Shown in pieces: positions 1 through 10,149 of a stretch of 10,149 nt of DNA; position 1 is the stretch's first letter; each line of letters opens with the position of its first letter. Made by a program: the position numbers and the translations under genes. The notes below the pieces were generated by a model. The model did no database searches, was not told the origin of the DNA, and saw nothing but the letters and a program-made list of their open reading frames with translations. This DNA is from Planctomycetota bacterium (GTDB taxonomy: Bacteria > Planctomycetota > Phycisphaerae > WQYP01 > JAJZKY01). The stretch covers positions 1-10,149 of the forward strand of contig JAJZKY010000120.1 in NCBI GenBank assembly GCA_021803885.1, written 5' to 3'.

Positions 1-18
1 CAGACCCGCGGGCGGGGT

Positions 19-57
19 ATGCGACATATCCGGTGGGATAAACCCACCGGCTCGCAT
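19..57. repeat. Two-tier hairpin (REP-like palindrome)
   Basis: An 8-bp perfect inner stem (CCGGTGGG at 30-37 with CCCACCGG at 43-50, loop ATAAA) is enclosed by a 6-bp outer stem (ATGCGA at 19-24 with TCGCAT at 52-57), with a 5-versus-1 base internal bulge between them. No U-run follows on the minus strand and only a weak T/A-rich stretch follows on the plus strand, so a classical rho-independent terminator is not well supported. It lies over 400 bases downstream of the permease stop codon and could equally belong to a gene left of the window. A repetitive extragenic palindrome or RNA-stability hairpin is the most neutral reading. Confidence 0.55.
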
Positions 58-60
58 TTA

Positions 61-470
61 TTATCCCCTGTAACATGTAACCCGTAATCCCCCATCACCA
101 CCCTCCGTTACCTCCGCTACCTCTTTGTGAATACACGTTGTGTCTTTGTGCCTTTGTGATGAACATCCCCATCCGTTGTTTCCTCCGCGCCTCTGTGATC
201 TCTGTGATCTCTGTGGCTAAATTATCTTGTGAAACCGTCGTCCCCAATCGCAAAAGCTTTTTACCATGACCATTGCCACAGAGGACACAACGTTGGGATG
301 GAATTTCACAATGAGGCAACGGAGGAAAAAGAGGTTTATAGAGGGGTTATCCATACGCCGTTCCCTCCGCTACCTCTTTGTGAGTCCCCACGTCACTTCT
401 TGGCGTTCCATCGTCGTGTCTTGGTGCCTTTGTGGTGAATGTATTTCTCTGTGAACTCTGTGGCGGTTGA
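61..470. repeat. Intergenic array of short degenerate phrases, left of the permease
   Basis: This gene-less stretch begins about 14 bases downstream of the permease stop codon. Read on the minus strand it consists of short purine-rich words: CACAGAG (three copies at 9-base period, 190-216), CACAAAGGCAC(A/C)AAGACAC, and CACAAAGAGGTAGCGGAGG. A 20-base word is repeated exactly at 111-130 and 364-383. A 24-base word is repeated with two mismatches at 140-163 and 416-439, so a larger module of about 250-275 bases has been duplicated and has diverged. Similar words also occur on the plus strand in the middle (about 274-335), so the module partly folds back on itself. Short ORFs across it have no coding character. 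I know such phrases from intergenic DNA of environmental bacteria but know of no established function. Confidence 0.7.
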
Positions 471-484
471 ACCGGGCTGCCGAG

Positions 485-1456
485 TTAAATTACGTCGGCA
501 AAGCGGCTTTCCATCTGTTTGAACAACACCAGGCCGATGATGAATACCAGCACCGAACATACGGCACTCCATGCTACTGCGCCAATGGCGAGATTACTTC
601 CGCCCACCAGTGCCCAGCGGAATGTGGAAAGAATGCCGATGAGCGGATTGGCGCAGTAATACGGATATACCCACATCATATGGAAATGTTCCAGTTTCAG
701 TTTTACCCAGGAGAGCGGAAAGATCACCGTGCTGGCGTACATGAGCATCTGCATGAAAACCGGCAGAATGTACTGGATGTCGCGGTAACTTACGGCCAGG
801 GCCGAACAGATCATGCCGATGCCGAGGCCGAAGAGAATGGGAATCAGCATAAAAAACGGCAGCAGCAGAGCATGGGGAAACGGATTAAGGTGATAGATTA
901 AAAGCAGGATCGCCATGACACCGCAGGAACAGGCGAAATCCACCAGAACCGAAACACTGGACGCCAGCGGCAGGATAATACGCGGGAAGTAAACCTTGGA
1001 AACCAGGTTGGCGTTAGAGACCATGACGGTGCTGGAGCGGGTGACGATATTGGCAAACAGGTTCCAGCCCAGCATGGCGGCGAATGTCAGCGCGGGGTAG
1101 GGCGCTTTTTCAGTTTTGTTCATGCCGGCGAGAATGCCGATGGCGGTGAAGATCATGGTAGCCAGCAGGGGCTGGAGCACCACCCAGGCGATGCCCAGGA
1201 AAGTCTGTTTATAACGAAGCTTGAGATCGCGGCCAGCGAGGCTGAACAGGAGATCACGGAAGTACCACACTTCCGCGAGATCTACCAGATGCCATGCCGA
1301 TCCGGGCCGCAAAACCAGGTGCGGCACAGGCGATGGCGGGCTTTCAGCCGAGGGGCTATGACCGCTGATTAAAGTATCAGCCATCTCCGAGTTGGCCGCA
1401 CTTACCGGCGGGTTCACCGGAACAACATCTGTTTTTTGATAAACGGATTCAGACAT
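485..1456 (-). CDS. ABC-2 type polysaccharide/polyol-phosphate export permease (Wzm/TagG/KpsM-like)
   Basis: This is a 323-aa inner-membrane permease subunit of an ABC exporter that would move a lipid-linked glycan across the cytoplasmic membrane. After a Pro/Ser-rich cytoplasmic N-terminal extension of about 55 residues comes the family signature: the W-x-LVDLAEVWYFRDLL helix, then RDLKLRYKQTFLG-AW at about 76-91. About six hydrophobic segments follow (roughly 86-110, 120-138, 163-188, 196-218, 227-248, 288-312), with YFPR at 156-159 and an NP at 271-272. The ATG has AAGG nine bases upstream; an internal Met25 with adjacent GGAG is possible but worse spaced. The gene is separated by 452 bases from the TPR gene upstream and has no ATPase (Wzt/TagH) gene directly downstream within the window, so its nucleotide-binding partner must be encoded elsewhere. 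The family call is solid; the exported polymer is unknown. Confidence 0.9.
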   Translation of the reverse strand: MSESVYQKTDVVPVNPPVSAANSEMADTLISGHSPSAESPPSPVPHLVLRPGSAWHLVDLAEVWYFRDLLFSLAGRDLKLRYKQTFLGIAWVVLQPLLATMIFTAIGILAGMNKTEKAPYPALTFAAMLGWNLFANIVTRSSTVMVSNANLVSKVYFPRIILPLASSVSVLVDFACSCGVMAILLLIYHLNPFPHALLLPFFMLIPILFGLGIGMICSALAVSYRDIQYILPVFMQMLMYASTVIFPLSWVKLKLEHFHMMWVYPYYCANPLIGILSTFRWALVGGSNLAIGAVAWSAVCSVLVFIIGLVLFKQMESRFADVI

Positions 1457-1528
1457 GGTTTAAAACCTTGAATCTGGAATGACGAAGGAAAAGATTTACC
1501 ACGACGACACGATGACACATTACGATAA

Positions 1529-1560
1529 ATTCACAGGGCGGTAGCGGAGGTAACCGGAGG
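1529..1560 (+). repeat. Right arm of an inverted phrase pair flanking the permease gene
   Basis: The sequence ATTCACA, four variable bases, GGTAGCGGAGGTAAC, then (C)GGAGG at 1529-1560 is matched in inverse orientation at 102-132. The left copy differs only in the four-base spacer (AAGA versus GGGC) and in lacking one C. A third, partial copy lies at about 357-383 in the same orientation as the left arm. The arms enclose the entire permease gene plus its downstream array. There is no transposase and no obvious target duplication, so these may simply be members of the dispersed phrase family. Confidence 0.6.
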
Positions 1561-1567
1561 ACTAAGA

Positions 1568-1594
1568 AACAACGAACAACGAACAACGAACAAC
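1568..1594 (+). repeat. 7-base tandem repeat, AACAACG, almost four copies
   Basis: AACAACG occurs at 1568-1574, 1575-1581 and 1582-1588, followed by AACAAC at 1589-1594. The repeat is perfect over 27 bases and lies within the intergenic array. Its period is not a multiple of three and it is outside any gene, so copy-number change could only alter spacing or transcription. Confidence 0.85.
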
Positions 1595-1614
1595 AAAGAA
1601 CGGGAGGGATGATC

Positions 1615-1641
1615 CACAGATTACGCAGATTTCACAGATTA
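1615..1641 (+). repeat. 9-base tandem repeat of CACAGATTA type
   Basis: Three consecutive 9-base units are seen: CACAGATTA (1615-1623), CGCAGATTT (1624-1632) and CACAGATTA (1633-1641). The period equals that of the CACAGAGAT triple at 190-216 on the other side of the permease, which suggests a common origin or shared periodicity. Confidence 0.75.
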
Positions 1642-1651
1642 CGGGTTTAGC

Positions 1652-1669
1652 GGGCCAGCCTGCTGGCCC
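1652..1669. repeat. Perfect GC-rich palindrome in the intergenic gap
   Basis: GGGCCAGC (1652-1659), a 2-base centre (CT), and GCTGGCCC (1662-1669) form an 8-bp perfect inverted repeat, effectively a 7-bp stem with a 4-base loop. No T-run follows on either strand, so a rho-independent terminator is not supported. It lies 240 bases downstream of the TPR gene's stop codon. Confidence 0.6.
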
Positions 1670-1908
1670 TGTAACGGCTGGAGACAGTGAGAACCTTGTC
1701 CTCTGTAACCTGGAATCATGGACGATGGGGAGATTTAACACAACGACATAACGACGAATGTCGCTGATAACACGGACAATATCTGCGGGTGTCGCAACCG
1801 TGTTGCACTGCCAGGAGCAATGCCGTCCGAATCTCTGTTTCCAGCAGGCCTATGCGAATTTTCCCGATCACGTCCCATGCCGCCATTGTTTTGTTGCCGC
1901 AAAAATAT

Positions 1909-4900
1909 TCACTTTAGCCGCCGCAGCAAGGCTTGGTAATGCTGACGGGTGCCGGCCGGCACTTGTGCGGAATTTACGGTCTGGGGGACGATTTTTCTAA
2001 ATACATCGGAGGCCCGTTTCATGTCCCCGGCGCGAACTAGAATGCGTACCAGATCGATCTTCCATTCCACTGCAGCAGGTTCCAGATTAATTGCCGACTG
2101 GATCGATTTTAACGCGGCTTTCATATCTCCAATGCGCGACTGTACCAAAGCCAGTGTATCCCAATAAGCGGCGACAGCTGGCTTAGCTTTTACCGCCGCC
2201 TGGGCCAGAGACAAGGCTTCAGTCAAGTCCGGATGCGTTTCCCGCACCAATAACATGGCCAGATTGTTTTGCGCCATTGGCAGATGGGCATTGAGTTTCA
2301 AGGCGTTCTGATAATTGGCAATCGCGGGAACTGTTTCGCCGGCGGATAACTGTACGGTGGCCAACTCCGAAAGCACTGTGGAGCGTTGCAATGCGGACAG
2401 CGTTTGGGTATTCAGCAAGTTGACCAGCTGCGTTGCAGCCAGATGAAGATATGCGTTGTTGCCAACACGCTGGCCCAAAGTCCACCAGCCTTGCGCAATT
2501 TGCAATTTTTCAGCCGTCGCCGTGGCGGACGTGGCGGCGGCAACCCGATGGAGCCACAGCGCGGCGGTGGCGGCCGGTAATTCGTGTCCGGCAATATCGA
2601 CAGCAAATTGCCGCCAATTGGGGTATTGCGCTATCAGAGGCAGCAGCACCGCTTTAAGTTCAACCAGGTTATGCAGAGCAATTTGCGATTGCAGGTAGGC
2701 GGCAATGATGCCGGGATCATGGGAGGGGTCTTTCAGCGCCGCGGCCATATAAGGCCGCAGAGTGCGTACGGCCGCCTCCGGCTCAGAAAGATTCAAATAA
2801 GCCACAGCTTCCAGAACTTTAGCGGAGGTGGAATACGTCGGGCTGCGTTTGGCCCAGCTTTGCGTAGCGCTTAGAGCCTGCGACCAATGGTGCGCGGCGG
2901 CAAAGGCCACGGCGGCAAGCCGGGCGGGGGTAACGGCAGCGGGGAACATTCGCACCGCACCAAGTGCAACAATAGCGCCCTGGTCGGGATGGCCTGCAGT
3001 AATCAGAAATTGAGCGGCGGCATTTTGTAAGGCAGCAAAATGCGGATGTTGCCGGGCCAGGCCCGCCAGCTGTGCCGCAAAATTCGCCAGTTTGGGTTTG
3101 GCGGCCACCGCAGAGCCAACAATTTGCACCACACTCTGGGCACCGGCCAGCGGTGGAGTGGAAAGCAATGACATCGCCAGTGGGCGAAGAAGGGCGTTGT
3201 GAAGTAACGGGTTTATCGTGCCAAGATTATTTTGGATAAACTCCAGCGTTTTATCATCCGGTAGCGCGGCTGCGGCGGAGCGGACGGTTTTTTTGACGGC
3301 CTGTACATTCCCCAGGCGCATTTCCAAAGCCAGCAGGCGATACCAGATCATCTGAACTTTGGGTGCAGAGGCGGCAGCGGCCTGGTAAGCGGCAAGGGCC
3401 TTTTTCGCATTACCGGCATTAGCATAAAAATCGCCATAAATAATATTTATAACGCCTGCGGAAAGCTGCAGGCTTTTAAGTCCGGAGAGAATTTGCAACG
3501 CTTTGGCGGTTTGCCCCTGCCGCGCATAAAACTCACTGGCGGCGGCAATGACCGCGGCGTTGGGTTTTTTCAGCAGCTGGCGATACAACCGTTGCGCGGA
3601 GATATTGCGACCCTCCCGCTGATACAATTGAGCCAGGATCAGATCATCACCGGGAGTGGATTTACCGGCACCTTGTGCACGGCGCAACAAGGCAATGGCT
3701 TTGTCGACCTGCCCATCGGCGACAAATAATGCCACGGCCTGGCGCTGTTGGGCAGGTGTAGCGGCGGTAGAATTGGCTACCTGTTGAAGATATTGGCGGG
3801 CGTGTTCGCTATCCCCTTCACTCTGGTATAATTGCGCAAGTTGCAAAGCCACGCCGGCATTTTGCGGCGCCAGAGCGGCGGCTACCCGAAGCTGGCTGAT
3901 GGCGTCAACCTTGTCGGAATTTTTCAGATCAATTTGTGCCAGCAATAAGTGCGGCAGCAGCACATCGGGCGAGGTGCGAATAGTCTGGTCCAGAAGTTTT
4001 AGCGCCGCCAGAAGGTCTTTTTTACCGGTGCTGTAATTAATCAGCCAGCCGGCTTTGGCCATTTTCCACGAGAATCCATTTTTGCCGATAATGGATTGCA
4101 GACGAACAAAGGTATTTAGAATGAAATGACGATCGGTTTGCAGGCTCGGCACGGACAGCGCCAGCCACTGGGCATGGGCGTTATCCGCATTCGCCGCCGC
4201 CGCTATTTTCCAGGCTTTTGCGGCAGCGGCATTTTGGGTGGCGGCAAAATACTCTGCCATGGCCAAATCCCATTCCGGAGCATAAGCGCCGGAAGTTTGG
4301 CGGTGTGATTGTAAAAAGTCCAGAGCCTTTTGAGGCTCTTTAGCCTGCAGATATCGTCCGGCATACGCCAGAGCCAGGCGCGGACGCAGGCCATAAAGTT
4401 TTTGGATCGCCGCCAGAATAGTTTGTCCCAGGCCTAATTTATTTTGCCGGTTCAGAGCATAAAGATTCAGGAGTGTGGAGAACCGGCGTGGAGGATGGGC
4501 AGAAAGCTCAGCGGTAATAAGGCGTTGCGCCGCAGTGATTTGTTTTAAGACCACCAGACCACGAATTTGCTCCGCCAGGAGAATCGGTTTTCCGGGAAAT
4601 TGGTGTTCTAAACGAACAATAGATTTAAGAAGTGCTTCCACCCGGTCGGGCTGGTTGATGGGCGTAGTAATGGCCCGCAGACGGATGCGGTTTATATGTA
4701 CCTGCCGATCATCAGGAGCCAGCGTGGTGGCGCGTTTTATAAGCACATTAGCGGCCTGCAGGTGTCCGGTCCGGGCTAAGACCATCGCCAGATTTAACAA
4801 TGGCTCCGGCCAGGTGGGAGCCAGGCGCGCGGCCATTTTCCATTCGATCAGCGCAAGTTCCGTTTCGCCCACGTGTTGATATCCGTCGGCCAGCAGATCA

Positions 4901-6063
4901 ACAAAATAGGGTTGGCCGGGAAACGTAGCAACGGCCGTGCGGAGCACTTTCATCCGCGTTAAATCCGACACCTTTGGATGCAACCGCAAATTCAAAACCG
5001 CGTTCCATTGTCCAGCCACCGGCGATTTAATTGATTTCAGCACTTTAAGAATCTGTGCCGCACGGTGCGAATGGCCCAGGCGAATGAGCGAACGGGCACG
5101 ATACGCCAAAAGCAGCGGATGAACCAGGGACTTGGTAGCGGTAAGTTGCAGCACCTGGTTGTCATGCCCCTGCTGATAAAGGCGATCACACAGGGCTTCC
5201 AAAATTGGAACGGCGGCGCCTCGATGCACAGCCTGTTCCAGCACCAGCGTAGCTGGGGTATATAGTTGCAGTGAATCGAGCTGCCGGGTCAGGGGGAGAA
5301 TCAGGCTGGGATATTGCGTGATATTGACATTCGCAGCCGCCTGCAGCGCGAGGCTTTTGGCTCGCTGCGGGTGTTGGGTCAAAGTGGCGGCGGCACTGGT
5401 AAGCACCTGATAAACCGGATCGGCGGGCGCTTTATTGAGGAATTGTTCTGCCCAGCTGGTCAGCGTGGCCGCCGGCAATTGCTGCTGATAGAGCATATCC
5501 AAAGCCAGTAAACCGTTCTGGATACGGGTGGGTGCCAATTGGAAAGCTTTTCCGGCGGCAGCGAAGGCGCGCTTAAATTTTCTTAACCGTCCATAGGCCA
5601 GAGATTCAGATTCCAGCGCCGGCAAGTTATTGGGATTTTTAGTTAGCATCCGCCGGGCCAGCGTAACACATTCCACATTGTAATTCAGTTCGGCCAGTAA
5701 TTTCACGAGCTTCTGCTGATAGTAGAGATCGTCAGGCTTTTGATAAAGAATCTGCTTAAGGACCGAGGCGGCCTGATAAAGATTTCTGCCACCCGGCAGC
5801 GGCACTTTCATGCTGGCGGCGGCGTAACCTTCCAGAGAGGGCAGGTCGGTGGGGTCTTGCCCCAGAAAAGCGCCCAGATCATTAAGCGCCAATTCATATT
5901 TTTTCGCTTTTACCGCCGCCAGCCCCTGGGCGCGGAGCTGCAGGAAGTGTTCATGAATACGATGTTTGCGATACATCACCACCGCTCCACCCAGCAGAAT
6001 CAAGACCAGGAAGCCAACGGCGAGTATCAACAGGCGGCGTTTCATCCGTTGTCGTGAATTCAT
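1909..6063 (-). CDS. Very large membrane-anchored TPR-repeat protein, probable polysaccharide-assembly scaffold
   Basis: The product is 1384 aa. Residues 1-10 are basic and residues 11-30 form one hydrophobic segment without a lipobox cysteine, so it reads as a signal anchor with the bulk in the periplasm. Almost everything after residue 40 is helical, Ala/Leu/Gln-rich TPR-like repeats. Clear units occur near the N-terminus (for example AVKAKKYELALNDL and the ALESESLAYGRLRKFKRAF region) and at the C-terminus (AIANYQNALKLN, AAYWDTLALVQSRIGDMKAA). No enzymatic domain or C-terminal sorting signal is visible. PrsT-type TPR proteins of exosortase loci and the TPR scaffolds of exopolysaccharide secretion are the nearest functional analogues, but those are usually shorter and PrsT is a lipoprotein. 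The ATG overlaps the upstream stop as ATGA and has GAGGAG six bases upstream, so the start is well supported. Confidence 0.85.
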   Translation of the reverse strand: MNSRQRMKRRLLILAVGFLVLILLGGAVVMYRKHRIHEHFLQLRAQGLAAVKAKKYELALNDLGAFLGQDPTDLPSLEGYAAASMKVPLPGGRNLYQAASVLKQILYQKPDDLYYQQKLVKLLAELNYNVECVTLARRMLTKNPNNLPALESESLAYGRLRKFKRAFAAAGKAFQLAPTRIQNGLLALDMLYQQQLPAATLTSWAEQFLNKAPADPVYQVLTSAAATLTQHPQRAKSLALQAAANVNITQYPSLILPLTRQLDSLQLYTPATLVLEQAVHRGAAVPILEALCDRLYQQGHDNQVLQLTATKSLVHPLLLAYRARSLIRLGHSHRAAQILKVLKSIKSPVAGQWNAVLNLRLHPKVSDLTRMKVLRTAVATFPGQPYFVDLLADGYQHVGETELALIEWKMAARLAPTWPEPLLNLAMVLARTGHLQAANVLIKRATTLAPDDRQVHINRIRLRAITTPINQPDRVEALLKSIVRLEHQFPGKPILLAEQIRGLVVLKQITAAQRLITAELSAHPPRRFSTLLNLYALNRQNKLGLGQTILAAIQKLYGLRPRLALAYAGRYLQAKEPQKALDFLQSHRQTSGAYAPEWDLAMAEYFAATQNAAAAKAWKIAAAANADNAHAQWLALSVPSLQTDRHFILNTFVRLQSIIGKNGFSWKMAKAGWLINYSTGKKDLLAALKLLDQTIRTSPDVLLPHLLLAQIDLKNSDKVDAISQLRVAAALAPQNAGVALQLAQLYQSEGDSEHARQYLQQVANSTAATPAQQRQAVALFVADGQVDKAIALLRRAQGAGKSTPGDDLILAQLYQREGRNISAQRLYRQLLKKPNAAVIAAASEFYARQGQTAKALQILSGLKSLQLSAGVINIIYGDFYANAGNAKKALAAYQAAAASAPKVQMIWYRLLALEMRLGNVQAVKKTVRSAAAALPDDKTLEFIQNNLGTINPLLHNALLRPLAMSLLSTPPLAGAQSVVQIVGSAVAAKPKLANFAAQLAGLARQHPHFAALQNAAAQFLITAGHPDQGAIVALGAVRMFPAAVTPARLAAVAFAAAHHWSQALSATQSWAKRSPTYSTSAKVLEAVAYLNLSEPEAAVRTLRPYMAAALKDPSHDPGIIAAYLQSQIALHNLVELKAVLLPLIAQYPNWRQFAVDIAGHELPAATAALWLHRVAAATSATATAEKLQIAQGWWTLGQRVGNNAYLHLAATQLVNLLNTQTLSALQRSTVLSELATVQLSAGETVPAIANYQNALKLNAHLPMAQNNLAMLLVRETHPDLTEALSLAQAAVKAKPAVAAYWDTLALVQSRIGDMKAALKSIQSAINLEPAAVEWKIDLVRILVRAGDMKRASDVFRKIVPQTVNSAQVPAGTRQHYQALLRRLK

Positions 6064-6860
6064 AATTTTCTCCTCATTATGGGAACCGCAGCCATGGAAG
6101 CCGGTGATGCATCGGGTAATATACAGCTATTGGGATCCGCCCCGGCGGCGACGTTACCACGGCCAATCCAGAGAGGCCGTGTATGAATATTAAGCGTAGA
6201 CATATCAAAACCTGTAAGGCCACGTACACGATACGCCAAACGGGTAATACTGGGAATAGCCGCTTCCGGATCAGACCAATCCCGTGTCAACGCCTGAAGA
6301 TATTCCAGTGCCTGGCGACCATGATCCGCATACGCCAGCCCTGGAACTTTGAGTGAAGCATAATCGGGATACCGCCGACGGAGGCTCATCCATTGATTTT
6401 CCACAGTACTGATGGTCCGCCAGAATTCCGCAATAGGTCGATGTGTGGTCAGGGCCAGACGTGCGGCAGGTGCAACTGTTGATGAATAATGATGAACCAT
6501 CAGCTTTTCCGGAGGTACTTGTGTTGGGTCATGGGGCGTTGAGCGTGGGAGCTTCTTTTCAGCCGCGGAGTGATGCCGTGGCGGTGGATTCAAGCCAATG
6601 AGGTACATAGCCCGTGGCATCCAGAACAAGCGATCCAGAACGTAACGCAGGTGCAAGCGGAACAAGCGTCCTGGTGAAATAAGCAAAAACACGCGGGCTT
6701 CGGGAGACAGCGGGGCAGTGGAACCGGATCGCACGATCGCAACTTCTCTGGAGAGCCAAAATAAATCATGCAATGCAGACGGGGAATATCCCCATACCGT
6801 CAACGCGTCGGCCGAGGTATTGGCATGACTATCCATATCCGATTCCGCGGGAGGTATCAT
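6060..6860 (-). CDS. Unrecognised 266-aa protein between the chain-length kinase and the TPR protein
   Basis: I do not recognise this family. The protein has a short acidic/Ser-rich N-terminus, a segment with aromatic and hydrophobic residues (about 30-90, including LHDLFWLSREVAIVRSG and a mixed Arg/Leu/Phe stretch), a Pro/His-rich linker (about 91-122), a helical, basic and aromatic region (about 140-215, with WMSLRRRYPDY and LEYLQALTRDW), and a Pro/Ala-rich tail. There is no signal peptide or clean transmembrane helix, so it is probably cytoplasmic or peripheral. It starts in an ATGA overlap with the kinase stop, with GAGGA close upstream, and ends in an ATGA overlap with the TPR gene. That tight coupling implies that its product is needed together with both neighbours. 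A second ATG at codon 9 (6836) is an alternative start. An adaptor role is only an inference. Confidence 0.8.
   Translation of the reverse strand: MIPPAESDMDSHANTSADALTVWGYSPSALHDLFWLSREVAIVRSGSTAPLSPEARVFLLISPGRLFRLHLRYVLDRLFWMPRAMYLIGLNPPPRHHSAAEKKLPRSTPHDPTQVPPEKLMVHHYSSTVAPAARLALTTHRPIAEFWRTISTVENQWMSLRRRYPDYASLKVPGLAYADHGRQALEYLQALTRDWSDPEAAIPSITRLAYRVRGLTGFDMSTLNIHTRPLWIGRGNVAAGADPNSCILPDASPASMAAVPIMRRKL
6064..6075 (-). promoter_or_regulatory. Ribosome binding site of the TPR gene
   Basis: GAGGAG (6070-6075) lies six bases upstream of the ATG at 6061-6063, inside the last codons of the preceding gene. It fixes the TPR start at the ATGA overlap rather than at the internal Met7. Confidence 0.75.
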
Positions 6861-9310
6861 TTATCCTCTTCATCCTGGGTATTGGCGGATGCGGCCACGG
6901 CCAGGGCTAAAGGCCCCAGGGGAGCCAGCGGCTTAAGTCGCTCGGCATCCAGTTGCAGGGTCAACGCATTATCCGCAGCCGGCGGCGCGCTGGCAAAACT
7001 TTCCAGTGAAGTACTATACGACTGCCGGTGCATATCACGTTCGGTGGCGCGATTGAAAACCACGCCTTCGAGATGGGCGCCAACGGAAGCGAGATAATCG
7101 GCGGCGTGACCGGCCAGATTGCGACTTTCACCACGAGCCACAACCATCAGCACGCCATCCGCCTGGCTGGCCAGAAGCGCGGATTCCAGTGATCCCAATA
7201 CCGGGCCGGTATCCACGAGCACAGAATCATATCGTTCCTTGGCATGGGCCAGCAAAGCGCGAATGGAGGCCGGTGACATACGGGCACCATGATGCGCTTT
7301 GGCCCGCCCCAGCGGCAAGACATCCAGATTAGGAATTTTGGTGTGAACCACACATTCATCCAATGGTTTGCCGGCTACAGCATCCATAAGTCCGCGTTTG
7401 CTTAAGCGTTGCAGTTGCAGGGCTTTGTCCAGCATTTCCTGGTCAATATAGCCCATTTTCAGCAGTTCCGAACCGATGGGACGTTTGGATTCTCCGGCTG
7501 CGGCTAAAGCCTCTTTGAGTTGTTCGCGGGTGATCATTTTGTGCTTAACCAGAACATCGCCAAGGCGTTGACTGCGGAGAATGCCCATACGATCGGTTAA
7601 CTGCCCCCCCACCACGTCGGCATCAATAAGTAAGGTTTTCATTCCCGAGGCGGCATACGATAAGCCCAGGGCCAGGATCATGCTGGTTTTGCCGGTGCCG
7701 GCCGTGGGGCTGGTGATAACCAGAGCCTGCGAAGAGTCCATATTGGGACGCACCTGGAGCAAGCCGCGGATGCGGTGGATGCTGCGGGCTCCAACGGCCA
7801 GTTCCAGTGCCGTGGCGGCACCATTGGAGGGTAATTGCGGCACGGCGCCCAAAATCCGGTAAGAATGCAAAGGAGTAATTTGCATATCACCCACGGTGCG
7901 CAGCCGGCCATGCAAAAATCCCCACAGCAGAATCACACCGAAACCCAGAACGATGCCGCCAAGTCCTGCGGCGGCGGTGGCAGCCAACCGCAAATGGCGT
8001 GATTGGGTGGTTGGCGCCGCCGGAAAATTACCGGTGCTTTCAACCCGGATGCGGCCCCCCGTCGCGGATTCCATATTGATGGCATCCATACGGGATTTGA
8101 TGGTATGTAATTGCCGGCGCAGGTCCTGGCTTTGAGTCTGGAGATTTTGCACCTTGGCGTAGAGACTGCCCAGCGCCAGGGTCTGCGCCTTGACGGATTC
8201 ATATAAAATGCGCAATTGATGCTCCCGCGCCTGCAGCAAGGCCAGCGACATGGGGCCCCCCGGGGTCGTGGGAGCAAGTGACGGCCCTTTACCCGCAAGG
8301 CTGGCCCGATAGGACCTTATTTCATCACGCAGGGCATCAAGGCTGGATTGCAGCGTTACAATGCGTTGATTGTTGGGGCCCAGACCTGCCAGCTCCAATT
8401 CTTTGATGGATTTTTTCAGCGCCAGAGCCTGAAGCTCAAATTGCGCGATCTGCGGGTCATATTCCGGAGCCAATGCGGCCAGGGCGGATTTCGCCGCGGT
8501 TTTTTTTCCACCGGACCGGGGTGTGGGACCGGAACCAGCCTTGGCCAGAGCGATACGGGCTTCCTGCCACTGCGTGTCGAGTTCGTTCATCAGTCCGAGT
8601 TTATAATTGTAAATGGTGCCCAAACCATCAGCGCCGTACTGGCTGGATAGCGCAGCGATCTGATCCTGATCGCTTTGCAGTTCATTTTGTAAAACCGTCT
8701 GGCGATCACGCAAGGCGTTGATTTGCAAACTTTGGGTGGCGGAATCGCCATGACTGTAAAGCTGCCGATAGGCATCTATGACGGCATTAGCGCCGATTTG
8801 CGCCACCACCGGATCCCGACTGGTAAAGGTGACATAAATCAATTCATTGCCGGACTTATGGGTAACAGCTAATTCGGATGCAAATTGAGCTTTGGCGGCG
8901 GCGTCCATACCACGATGTAACGCCTGCCACTTGGGATTCTGCATGGCCAGATCAATGGTTCGTGAACTTTCAATCAGGGCCGTCTGCGAATTGATGTAGG
9001 CGCTGAACATGGGCATAGCTTCGTTTTGTGAAGTCGTGTACAAAATACGCGGCAGGTATGGCAGAATACGCACCAAGCCGGCGCTTTTATATGTAAGCTG
9101 GACATTTTTGTACGACACGACGGCACCGGCAATCGCCAGCACCAGGCCCAGGAGAATGGCCCAAGGATAGCGCCCCGTCAACAACCGATGAATTAACAAC
9201 AGAGGATTATTCATCGGCTCGGATGAATCCACAAAGGGTCCGGGCCCCGGAACCATTGAAGATCGAGCTAAATCCGGCGTATACGCCACCGGTTCATTTG
9301 GCGGAATCAT
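6857..9310 (-). CDS. Wzz/Wzc-type chain-length determinant fused to BY-kinase-like ATPase, with an embedded MshEN-like module
   Basis: From the preferred ATG at 9310 the protein has 817 aa. Its order is: a cytoplasmic N-terminus; TM1 about 49-67; a periplasmic region with long coiled-coil-like Gln/Leu-rich stretches; a PxxP (430-433) before TM2 (about 441-468); then a cytoplasmic P-loop ATPase. Walker A is SPTAGTGKTS (534-543), Walker A' is TLLIDAD (559-565) and Walker B is VLVDT (697-701). These are the hallmarks of Wzc/CpsD-type tyrosine kinases, which control polymer length and export. Residues 582-634 are an extra module with the MshEN c-di-GMP-binding pattern. The C-terminal tail has a single Tyr instead of the usual Tyr cluster. 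The longer start at 9367 has only a weak upstream signal; 9310 has GGAG six bases upstream and overlaps the EpsI-like gene by 17 bases. The stop overlaps the next gene as ATGA. Confidence 0.9.
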   Translation of the reverse strand: MIPPNEPVAYTPDLARSSMVPGPGPFVDSSEPMNNPLLLIHRLLTGRYPWAILLGLVLAIAGAVVSYKNVQLTYKSAGLVRILPYLPRILYTTSQNEAMPMFSAYINSQTALIESSRTIDLAMQNPKWQALHRGMDAAAKAQFASELAVTHKSGNELIYVTFTSRDPVVAQIGANAVIDAYRQLYSHGDSATQSLQINALRDRQTVLQNELQSDQDQIAALSSQYGADGLGTIYNYKLGLMNELDTQWQEARIALAKAGSGPTPRSGGKKTAAKSALAALAPEYDPQIAQFELQALALKKSIKELELAGLGPNNQRIVTLQSSLDALRDEIRSYRASLAGKGPSLAPTTPGGPMSLALLQAREHQLRILYESVKAQTLALGSLYAKVQNLQTQSQDLRRQLHTIKSRMDAINMESATGGRIRVESTGNFPAAPTTQSRHLRLAATAAAGLGGIVLGFGVILLWGFLHGRLRTVGDMQITPLHSYRILGAVPQLPSNGAATALELAVGARSIHRIRGLLQVRPNMDSSQALVITSPTAGTGKTSMILALGLSYAASGMKTLLIDADVVGGQLTDRMGILRSQRLGDVLVKHKMITREQLKEALAAAGESKRPIGSELLKMGYIDQEMLDKALQLQRLSKRGLMDAVAGKPLDECVVHTKIPNLDVLPLGRAKAHHGARMSPASIRALLAHAKERYDSVLVDTGPVLGSLESALLASQADGVLMVVARGESRNLAGHAADYLASVGAHLEGVVFNRATERDMHRQSYSTSLESFASAPPAADNALTLQLDAERLKPLAPLGPLALAVAASANTQDEEDK
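7409..7567 (-). other. MshEN-like (GspE N-terminal type) c-di-GMP-binding module inserted in the BY-kinase domain
   Basis: The encoded 53 residues fit the published MshEN architecture: two 24-residue motifs separated by exactly five residues. Motif 1 starts RLGDVL and has hydrophobic residues at positions 6, 12, 17 and 21. Motif 2 starts PIGSELL and has the same spacing, ending ALQLQ with the expected Gln at position 24. Motif 1 has Ala where the consensus has Gln, and motif 2 begins with Pro. The module lies directly after Walker A' (the TDRMG segment) and directly before RLSKRGLMDAVAGK, which corresponds to the GLSDVLxG segment of ordinary BY-kinases. It is therefore a clean insertion in a loop of the ATPase fold. 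MshEN domains are known from type II secretion and type IV pilus ATPases; binding of c-di-GMP here is inferred from the motif. Confidence 0.8.
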
Positions 9311-10034
9311 AAGACACTCCGTGTAAAATTGCGGTAATGAGTTTCCAATTGGCTCCGACCAGATCATGAAATACCCGCAGACGATCAGCCGGAAGCATAT
9401 TGCCGGGCAGGGTCAATTCCACCTGCGCGGCCCCAAAAACCCGTTCATTAAAACTTCCGGAATCGTGCAGAAATTCACGCTCGGTGGCCAGAAATTTATC
9501 ATCCGGCATTACAAAAAAATCATCGACATAAATATGTGATTCCGTATCAAAAGCCCCACGATGAAATTTATATTCCATGCCCTGAATGGGCCGTTTTTGA
9601 ATCACCCAGGTCATGGGGGTGGATCGATTCAGAACCCAGCCATTACCAGGATAGCAATTCGGTGGATAATGGCCGGAAAGATTGCGGGTATCGGAACAAT
9701 CAATAACCATCAGAGTGGCCTGCTCGCCGGTTTTGGTATTGACGAAACTGCGGCACAGGTCCACATTGGGTTGCAACAGATGAACCGCGGATTGTGGCAG
9801 CGGCACATTGCGGCCATGCCAGTAACCAAAAACTTTCGGCATTTGCGCCGCCAGCGCCTGGACATGGGTGAGATATTGTCCAGCCTGCGGCGGTGGCTTT
9901 TCAAAATAGGAGCGCCCGGCAATCGCTGCCAGCAAAATCACACAGACGCAGGCCGGTACCCAGGCCAGCAGTTGGGAGCGATGCCTTGATGTTGGGTAAT
10001 ACTTCAGCATAGATTCAACCCATGAAACAGCCAC
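9294..10034 (-). CDS. epsI: EpsI-like (DUF3485) exosortase-associated protein
   Basis: The product is 246 aa with one N-terminal membrane segment (about 21-40), followed by a periplasmic domain. The diagnostic motif is the H-x-P-x-x-CYPG-x-GW pattern, here GHYPPNCYPGNGW at 121-133, preceded by a region consistent with EpsI (LPQSAVHLLQPNVDLCRSF). EpsI proteins accompany exosortases in polysaccharide/PEP-CTERM-type loci, sometimes fused to the exosortase; their biochemical role is not settled. The frame opens at GTG (10034), where AAGG is only one base away, which is too close; the ATG at codon 9 (10010) is an alternative and leaves the membrane segment intact. A stop lies in frame at 10044-10046, so no longer start exists. 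Its end overlaps the chain-length kinase gene by 17 bases. The family call is fairly sure, the start is not. Confidence 0.82.
   Translation of the reverse strand: MAVSWVESMLKYYPTSRHRSQLLAWVPACVCVILLAAIAGRSYFEKPPPQAGQYLTHVQALAAQMPKVFGYWHGRNVPLPQSAVHLLQPNVDLCRSFVNTKTGEQATLMVIDCSDTRNLSGHYPPNCYPGNGWVLNRSTPMTWVIQKRPIQGMEYKFHRGAFDTESHIYVDDFFVMPDDKFLATEREFLHDSGSFNERVFGAAQVELTLPGNMLPADRLRVFHDLVGANWKLITAILHGVSYDSAK
9311..9320 (-). promoter_or_regulatory. Ribosome binding site of the chain-length kinase gene
   Basis: GGAG (9317-9320) lies six bases upstream of the ATG at 9308-9310, within the 3' end of the EpsI-like gene. This decides the start in favour of 9310 over the ATG at 9367, which lacks a comparable site and would force a 74-base overlap. 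Confidence 0.65.
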
Positions 10035-10040
10035 ACCTTC

Positions 10041-10066
10041 GTGTCAGAGCACCAGTGCTCTGTCAC
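10041..10066. promoter_or_regulatory. Strong hairpin between the partial upstream gene and the EpsI-like gene
   Basis: CAGAGCAC (10045-10052) and GTGCTCTG (10055-10062) are perfect complements around a 2-base centre. After one T-T mismatch the stem extends by three more pairs (GTG 10041-10043 with CAC 10064-10066). On the transcribed strand it ends seven bases before the GTG start and right next to the AAGG. There is no U-run, so a terminator is unlikely; an mRNA-processing, stability or translation-control hairpin is possible. Confidence 0.5.
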
Positions 10067-10068
10067 GC

Positions 10069-10149
10069 CTATAAATTAGGGTTGATTGGCGGCAAACGCT
10101 CCAGATGCAAGAAGCCGCGGTGAAAACTGGGTCCGTTGACCCTTTGAAC
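10069..10149 (-). CDS. C-terminal end of an upstream gene, possibly the exosortase (partial)
   Basis: One minus-strand frame stays open from the window edge to a TAG at 10069-10071, giving 26 residues that include FHRGFLHLERLPP near the end. The other two frames also remain open for much of this short stretch, so the choice rests on its ending just before the hairpin and the EpsI-like start. EpsI-type genes normally follow an exosortase gene, which makes that the contextual guess, but 26 residues carry no diagnostic motif. Confidence 0.35.
   Translation of the reverse strand, partial: VQRVNGPSFHRGFLHLERLPPINPNL

Follow-up and report, generated by a model that had tools for sequence, protein, structure and literature searches.

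In this study, we examined a 10,149-nucleotide stretch of DNA, referred to here as the window, from a Planctomycetota bacterium (Phycisphaerae; assembly GCA_021803885.1, contig JAJZKY010000120.1, forward strand, positions 1-10,149), and we identified in it a Wzc-like polysaccharide co-polymerase of the PCP-2 type whose ATPase domain carries an inserted MshEN_N-type module. We give a probability of roughly 0.55 to the reading that this protein is a PCP-2 co-polymerase in which a module binding cyclic di-GMP (c-di-GMP), set in the loop after the Walker A' motif, gates polymer length or export. The computation establishes the module, its fold, its site, the supported branch in which it is found and the joint conservation of its ligand contacts; binding of c-di-GMP by the insert is predicted from sequence. 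The features that carry the argument, including those shared with bacterial tyrosine kinases (BY-kinases), are the following.

6857..9367, minus strand: Wzc-like PCP-2-type polysaccharide co-polymerase with a fused BY-kinase-like P-loop ATPase, 836 amino acids (aa) from the first start
7748..7795, minus strand: helix occupying the position of the EX2RX2R oligomer motif, reading RxxHxxR (R528, H531, R534)
7685..7711, minus strand: Walker A, SPTAGTGKT, residues 553-561
7610..7633, minus strand: Walker A', LLIDADVV, residues 579-586, with its two Asp but not the BY-kinase Arg
7409..7567, minus strand: 53-residue c-di-GMP-binding motif of MshEN_N type (by profile), set into the ATPase domain at residues 601-653
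7496..7567, minus strand: motif I (RLG...L...L..A), RLGDVLVKHKMITREQLKEALAAA, with R1, L2, G3, L17 and L21 kept and Q24 changed to A
7481..7495, minus strand: spacer GESKR, five residues
7409..7480, minus strand: motif II (PIG...L...L..Q), PIGSELLKMGYIDQEMLDKALQLQ, with G3, L17, L21 and Q24 kept, R1 changed to P and L2 to I
7202..7222, minus strand: Walker B, VLVDTGP, residues 716-722
6860..7042, minus strand: C-terminal tail without a tyrosine cluster, one Tyr

The identity of the insert is supported by motif, profile and predicted structure. Both of its motifs are hydrophobic at positions 6, 12, 17 and 21, and the whole protein matches NF053729, the profile of an MshE-related c-di-GMP motif, with 50.2 bits (cut-off 38, E 1.6e-13) over positions 1-53 of 53; a 61-aa piece with the insert alone reaches 56.6 bits, and the same piece ranks PilF, MshE and PilB at the top of a sequence search of the PDB. 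The motif match is far beyond chance. The structure prediction folds the insert as the four helices of MshEN_N within one continuous domain (mean predicted local distance difference test score, pLDDT, of 90). It starts 17 residues past the second Asp of Walker A' (D584) and ends before the segment RGLMDAVAG, and relatives lacking it are mostly 58 residues shorter at this site (45 versus 103). Pfam alone fails to detect the domain, its best matches being FumaraseC_C and DUF4388, both under their cut-offs; we take these labels as cross-matches, given that P0179 and P0239, two proteins with strong NF053729 matches, also bear PF10415 labels. An earlier sequence-only reading of this DNA had described two 24-residue motifs with these hydrophobic positions and a five-residue spacer, had taken them for an MshEN-type module and had placed them between Walker A' and the GL segment of a Wzc-type chain-length protein. 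All of this was borne out, as was the fold that the reading required.

The remainder of the protein is consistent with the layout of a PCP-2 co-polymerase, in which two membrane stretches surround a periplasmic domain and a cytoplasmic ATPase follows. Hydrophobic stretches at residues 62-89 and 461-489 (by hydropathy) flank the match of the N-terminal part to the exopolysaccharide transport model TIGR01005 (residues 109-503, 76.6 bits, far under the cut-off of 411.7), and the C-terminal part, for which a CapB/Wzc fold is predicted, is matched by BY-kinase models in two pieces that are split precisely at residues 601-653. The real start of the gene is probably the ATG at 9310, giving 817 aa; the near-identical database protein P0001 has this length and starts 19 residues further in, which is why the insert was numbered 582-634 in the earlier reading and is 601-653 here.

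Relatives of the co-polymerase were pooled from three protein searches (the best 120 of 151, with only the best-sharing candidates scored; 20; and 108) and from 392 sampled genomes of the phylum. The resulting alignment comprised 265 sequences, namely the window protein, 231 database proteins and locus genes, some places having been fetched twice; P0134-P0138, P0179, P0238 and P0239 were left out as other MshEN proteins. An insert of the same length at the same site was found in 110 of the 265: the window protein, 89 of the 231 database proteins, and locus genes to the number of 20, which include duplicates. A further 149 have none and six have one of another length (five loci and the canonical protein P0120, in which the segment measures 69 aa). 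Reduction at 80% identity left 71 insert representatives, the window included. In a separate alignment, A1, 23 of 43 proteins carry the insert and 23 of 43 match NF053729, an agreement of counts and not of names. The query P0029 was matched in 331 of the 392 phylum genomes (two candidates scored per genome), and at least 10 genomes with the insert were found among 21 genomes (23 regions) taken from its best matches. All named insert-bearing records belong to Planctomycetota and, where lower ranks are stated, to Phycisphaerae, Phycisphaerales or Tepidisphaeraceae, most database proteins being nameless.

A tree of the ATPase columns with the insert removed (118 rows) places the 38 insert rows inside one branch of 45 (bootstrap 96; SH-like approximate likelihood ratio test, SH-aLRT, 83), which also holds five rows with other inserts and two without any. 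Six changes are required on the tree, of which supported branches force four, and the p value of the strict one-clade test was 0.174. One gain followed by replacements and losses is the simplest reading of these data, a single origin being neither demonstrated nor rejected. The loci L020 and L030, L022 and L023, and L038 carry other inserts at the same ATPase site, in a segment of 92-163 aa versus the 103-aa MshEN-bearing one, and none of them matches NF053729 at E up to 0.1. The site after Walker A' is, judging from these alignments, an insertion hot spot.

Special attention was given to the residues that would hold the ligand. In MshE, the contacts reported in PMC5013675 are R1, L2, G3, L17, L21 and Q24 of each motif. 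Nine of these 12 are identical in the window insert and one more is conservatively changed, with G3, L17 and L21 present in both motifs; the departures are Pro at position 1 of motif II, where R, K or L is expected in both motifs and motif I has R, and Ala at position 24 of motif I, so that Gln24 stands in motif II only. We have classified the insert as an MshEN-type domain on the basis of profile and fold, and not as a proven receptor. Its departures are in part known to be tolerated, because the GSPII-C domain of PilF also has Pro at position 1 of motif II, with an assigned dissociation constant (KD) of 324-460 nM (PMC11731258), and because changes of R9, D12 and Q32 shifted affinity at most about fivefold in the account of Wang et al. 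(PMC5013675). An engineered PilF piece with MshEN_N only is reported to bind at 695 nM (PMC12002112).

Among the 71 representatives, 54 retain both G3 residues along with the motif II Q24, and the two G3 residues co-occur with a Fisher p of 5e-7 when kinship is ignored. Entropy at contact positions is 1.66 bits versus 2.69 at positions that are neither contact nor core (p 2e-4), the core having 1.76. Residue 24 of motif I is one of Ala, Ser and Gly in 64/71, and motif II retains its Gln there in 60/71. The 17 degenerate representatives, which have lost contacts, all preserve a hydrophobic residue (L/I/V/M/F/A) at position 6 and at position 12 in each motif; for position 20 the counts are 15 and 13 of the 17, and a basic residue at one of the two positions before motif I is found in 53/54 intact and 13/17 degenerate cases. 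The degenerate state needs at least six changes on the tree of the 38 insert rows. The insert has a ratio of nonsynonymous to synonymous substitution (dN/dS) of 0.04-0.27 in seven pairwise comparisons of close relatives, with synonymous sites saturated in several pairs. Compared with the ATPase core, the insert has a lower or equal ratio in four of the pairs and a higher one in the other three, most clearly in the two closest. On the evidence of the contact positions, selection appears to have maintained ligand binding in most lineages, with losses in several, the body of the module being kept. The idea that contact loss tracks loss of c-di-GMP metabolism was ruled out, as GGDEF proteins occur in nine of nine genomes, including four with degenerate inserts (G349, G249, G363 and G359). 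Across a wider set, GGDEF proteins were found in 16 of 16 insert-bearing genomes tested and EAL in 12 of 13. Neither the window nor L042 gave a match at the gathering score of any Rfam family, so that no known c-di-GMP riboswitch is seen there.

The ATPase that houses the module differs from a BY-kinase in several respects. Walker A and Walker B are present, and the Arg of Walker A' (DxDxR; DADVV in the window) is absent in 71/71 insert representatives and present in none of 51 insert-less sisters versus 30 of 31 canonical relatives. Four or more tail tyrosines occur in two of the 71 (L033 and L037), in 0/51 sisters and in 25/31 canonical relatives. The EX2RX2R helix has His at its first Arg and Arg at its second in 20 of 20 representatives, whereas in the 31 canonical sequences its E, R and R are found in 30, 23 and 27. 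As the ring interface of CapB is described as formed half by this helix and half by the Y-cluster (PMC3795738), both halves of a CapB-type interface are altered in the window protein. The earlier label of a BY-kinase/Wzc-type ATPase is therefore retained for the Wzc-type chain-length protein and withdrawn for the BY-kinase. The window ATPase probably binds ATP, since it has the Walker motifs, and probably runs no usual tyrosine-phosphorylation switch. Wzc cycling is reported to be driven by tail phosphorylation (PMC11986026), and the BY pseudokinases EcpK and HfsB are reported to act without it (PMC12004946). Because the insert-less sisters lack the kinase features too, their loss is probably older than the insert.

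The proposed mechanism takes its starting point from PilF, where ligand binding is reported to unwind the first turn of helix alpha1 (PMC11731258). In our model, alpha1 begins at residue 602, about eight residues after a short helix (589-593) behind Walker A', and, because of this proximity, binding could reach the nucleotide site or the face of the protomer. Binding of c-di-GMP to the insert would unwind the first turn of alpha1, as in PilF; this could displace either the nucleotide site or the surface that meets the adjacent protomer, and either shift would set whether the co-polymerase ring assembles. High c-di-GMP would in this manner gate polymer length or export directly, and the mechanism predicts that ATP binding or ring assembly depends on c-di-GMP. 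A more far-reaching proposal, which we regard as speculative and rather unlikely, is that in this Planctomycetota clade c-di-GMP has replaced tyrosine phosphorylation as the switch for ring assembly, giving a ligand-driven, kinase-free PCP-2 cycle with the sensor wired into the Walker A' segment.

It is important to consider the observations that weigh against a ligand-gated co-polymerase. The alpha/beta subdomain MshEN_C is absent, with no PF05157 match and no room for it in a 58-residue insert. Position 24 of motif I, a ribose-phosphate contact, is Gln in a single representative of the 71 (P0129); the PilF change Q190E at this position reportedly weakens binding to a KD of about 500 nM (PMC11731258), H33Q is among the changes reported as needed in the GSPII-A reconstruction (PMC12002112), and R9 and Q32 are termed pivotal in PMC12943098. 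For the two closest gene pairs, the rate of evolution is higher in the insert than in the ATPase core. Binding of c-di-GMP is not the sole reason for keeping the insert, because 17 of the 71 lose the contacts yet keep the core of the fold and the four such genomes tested still have GGDEF. Nor is the module an obligatory substitute for phosphorylation, because the insert-less sisters, of which 51/51 have fewer than four tail tyrosines, persist without it. Finally, the structure prediction covers the ATPase domain with its insert as a single protomer.

These points feed an explanation that we judge unlikely, though it is the strongest competitor: the insert would descend from MshEN yet have given up c-di-GMP binding, and would serve as a structural or docking element that moulds the ring interface or recruits a partner, in the manner of the degenerate domain of XpsE and of the N-terminal domain of PilB that binds PilZ. 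If binding had been lost together with the ancestral Gln24, the remaining contacts should have decayed everywhere, yet 54/71 keep them together, and a PilZ partner is scarce, with one weak match in four of seven close genomes searched and none in the rest. By the same count, the claim that polysaccharide control here would proceed without a PilZ protein holds only loosely. The one-sided loss of Gln24 would also suit a related ligand, such as 3',3'-cyclic GMP-AMP (cGAMP) or a mononucleotide, bound through an asymmetric site, and MshEN is reported to bind cGAMP weakly (KD 3.3e-4 M; PMC5013675). Since Gln24 touches ribose and phosphate and not the base, and the base-reading G3 backbone is kept in both motifs, we consider such a ligand improbable. 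An artefact of assembly or gene calling that fused two genes is refuted by independent relatives, the insert being found in 89 database proteins at one site, constrained in sequence and modelled within one continuous domain; its probability is negligible. If the insert does bind c-di-GMP, a receptor module in the ATPase of a Wzc-type co-polymerase would provide a direct grip of this messenger on polymer length and export, and would offer an answer to how co-polymerases with a BY pseudokinase can be regulated in the absence of phosphorylation. If it does not bind, the family would instead represent the reuse of a sensor domain as a scaffold, at a site prone to insertions. Our analysis suggests that c-di-GMP may directly set how the cell builds its slime coat.

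Known architectures differ from that of the window protein. MshE, PilB, PilF and GspE have an N-terminal MshEN/GSPII domain, whereas here MshEN_N alone, without the alpha/beta MshEN_C and with motif I Gln24 missing, lies inside another ATPase fold. Partners of MshEN listed by Wang et al. (PMC5013675) include REC, HD-GYP, CheA, CheX, cyclase and Ser/Thr kinase domains. Control of exopolysaccharide machinery by c-di-GMP has been described for synthase-type systems, through PilZ and through NfrB of Escherichia coli, in which an MshEN domain at the C-terminus of a glycosyltransferase is reported to control output (PMC8669469 for NfrB); the NfrB profile matches the window insert with 26.7 bits, and the module of the window lies within the co-polymerase ATPase and not at a terminus. 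With respect to the BY-kinase co-polymerases Wzc and CapAB (PCP-2), the window protein lacks the tyrosine cluster and the Walker A' Arg, has an altered EX2RX2R helix and has gained the insert. EcpK and HfsB resemble it in having a BY-kinase-like domain without phosphorylation machinery that serves a polysaccharide co-polymerase; they stand alone, EcpK has also lost its Walker motifs, and the part of PMC12004946 available to us mentions no c-di-GMP module for them.

The pairing of MshEN with a BY-kinase has a precedent at the profile level. The EpsG model TIGR03029 is MshEN-like over its first 60-74 positions (3-74), which are matched by the insert of L035 with 28.0 bits and also by P0179 and three ATPases of GspE/PilB type; in the EpsG model the module is N-terminal to the kinase, and in the window protein it is internal. 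The window protein reaches 51.7 bits against this model (cut-off 313.8), its own insert does not match the MshEN-like part at E up to 1, and a search for a true EpsG sequence exceeded the cut-off in none of 149 genomes and none of four plasmid records. On the basis of this profile, EpsG kinases may be unrecognised c-di-GMP receptors. The statement that the architecture is not an established one consequently holds for the insertion inside the ATPase fold, of which we found no report, and not for the pairing itself, which is not new. No report of MshEN in a Wzc/BY-kinase was found in a literature covered mostly through titles and abstracts, without the architecture tables of PMC5013675, and an earlier listing is possible.

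The Ser/Thr kinases with an N-terminal MshEN domain are terminal fusions to a eukaryotic-type kinase, in contrast to the insertion described here. In the same organisms, we also observed a Ser/Thr kinase of this sort, its N-terminal MshEN motif being weak (L015:415-1701, minus strand; 36.8 bits versus the cut-off of 38), and open frames similar to it are present in G002 and G004-G007. The protein P0179 (1158 aa) combines eight matches to the c-di-GMP motif with CheA-like parts.

The genes around the co-polymerase, all on the minus strand, are the following.

9294..10034, minus strand: EpsI-like exosortase-associated protein, overlapping the co-polymerase gene; DUF3485 above cut-off, EpsI models under theirs
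6060..6860, minus strand: 266-aa relative of a sugar transferase, covering its N-terminal half, with the catalytic Bac_transf domain absent
1909..6063, minus strand: large tetratricopeptide repeat (TPR) protein like PrsT of exosortase (PEP-CTERM) loci, 134.3 bits, under the cut-off of 312.2
485..1456, minus strand: ABC-2 type polysaccharide export permease

The order of the five genes, from the EpsI-like gene overlapping the co-polymerase through the 266-aa and TPR genes to the ABC-2 permease, is the same in L001, L002 and L005, where relatives of each gene are found, and exosortase genes lie upstream in L002 and L034. By its gene content, the locus is an exosortase-linked polysaccharide locus of Planctomycetota, and the initiating transferase seems to have been reduced to its N-terminal part in the lineage of the window.

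An antiterminator of NusG/UpxY type was also observed at L002:5222-5956 (plus strand), upstream of the exosortase in the polysaccharide locus. Counterparts of the 266-aa protein in L001-L003 and L005 measure 255-266 aa, and in L034 the protein aligns with a 477-aa sugar transferase at 27% identity, over the N-terminal half of that enzyme.
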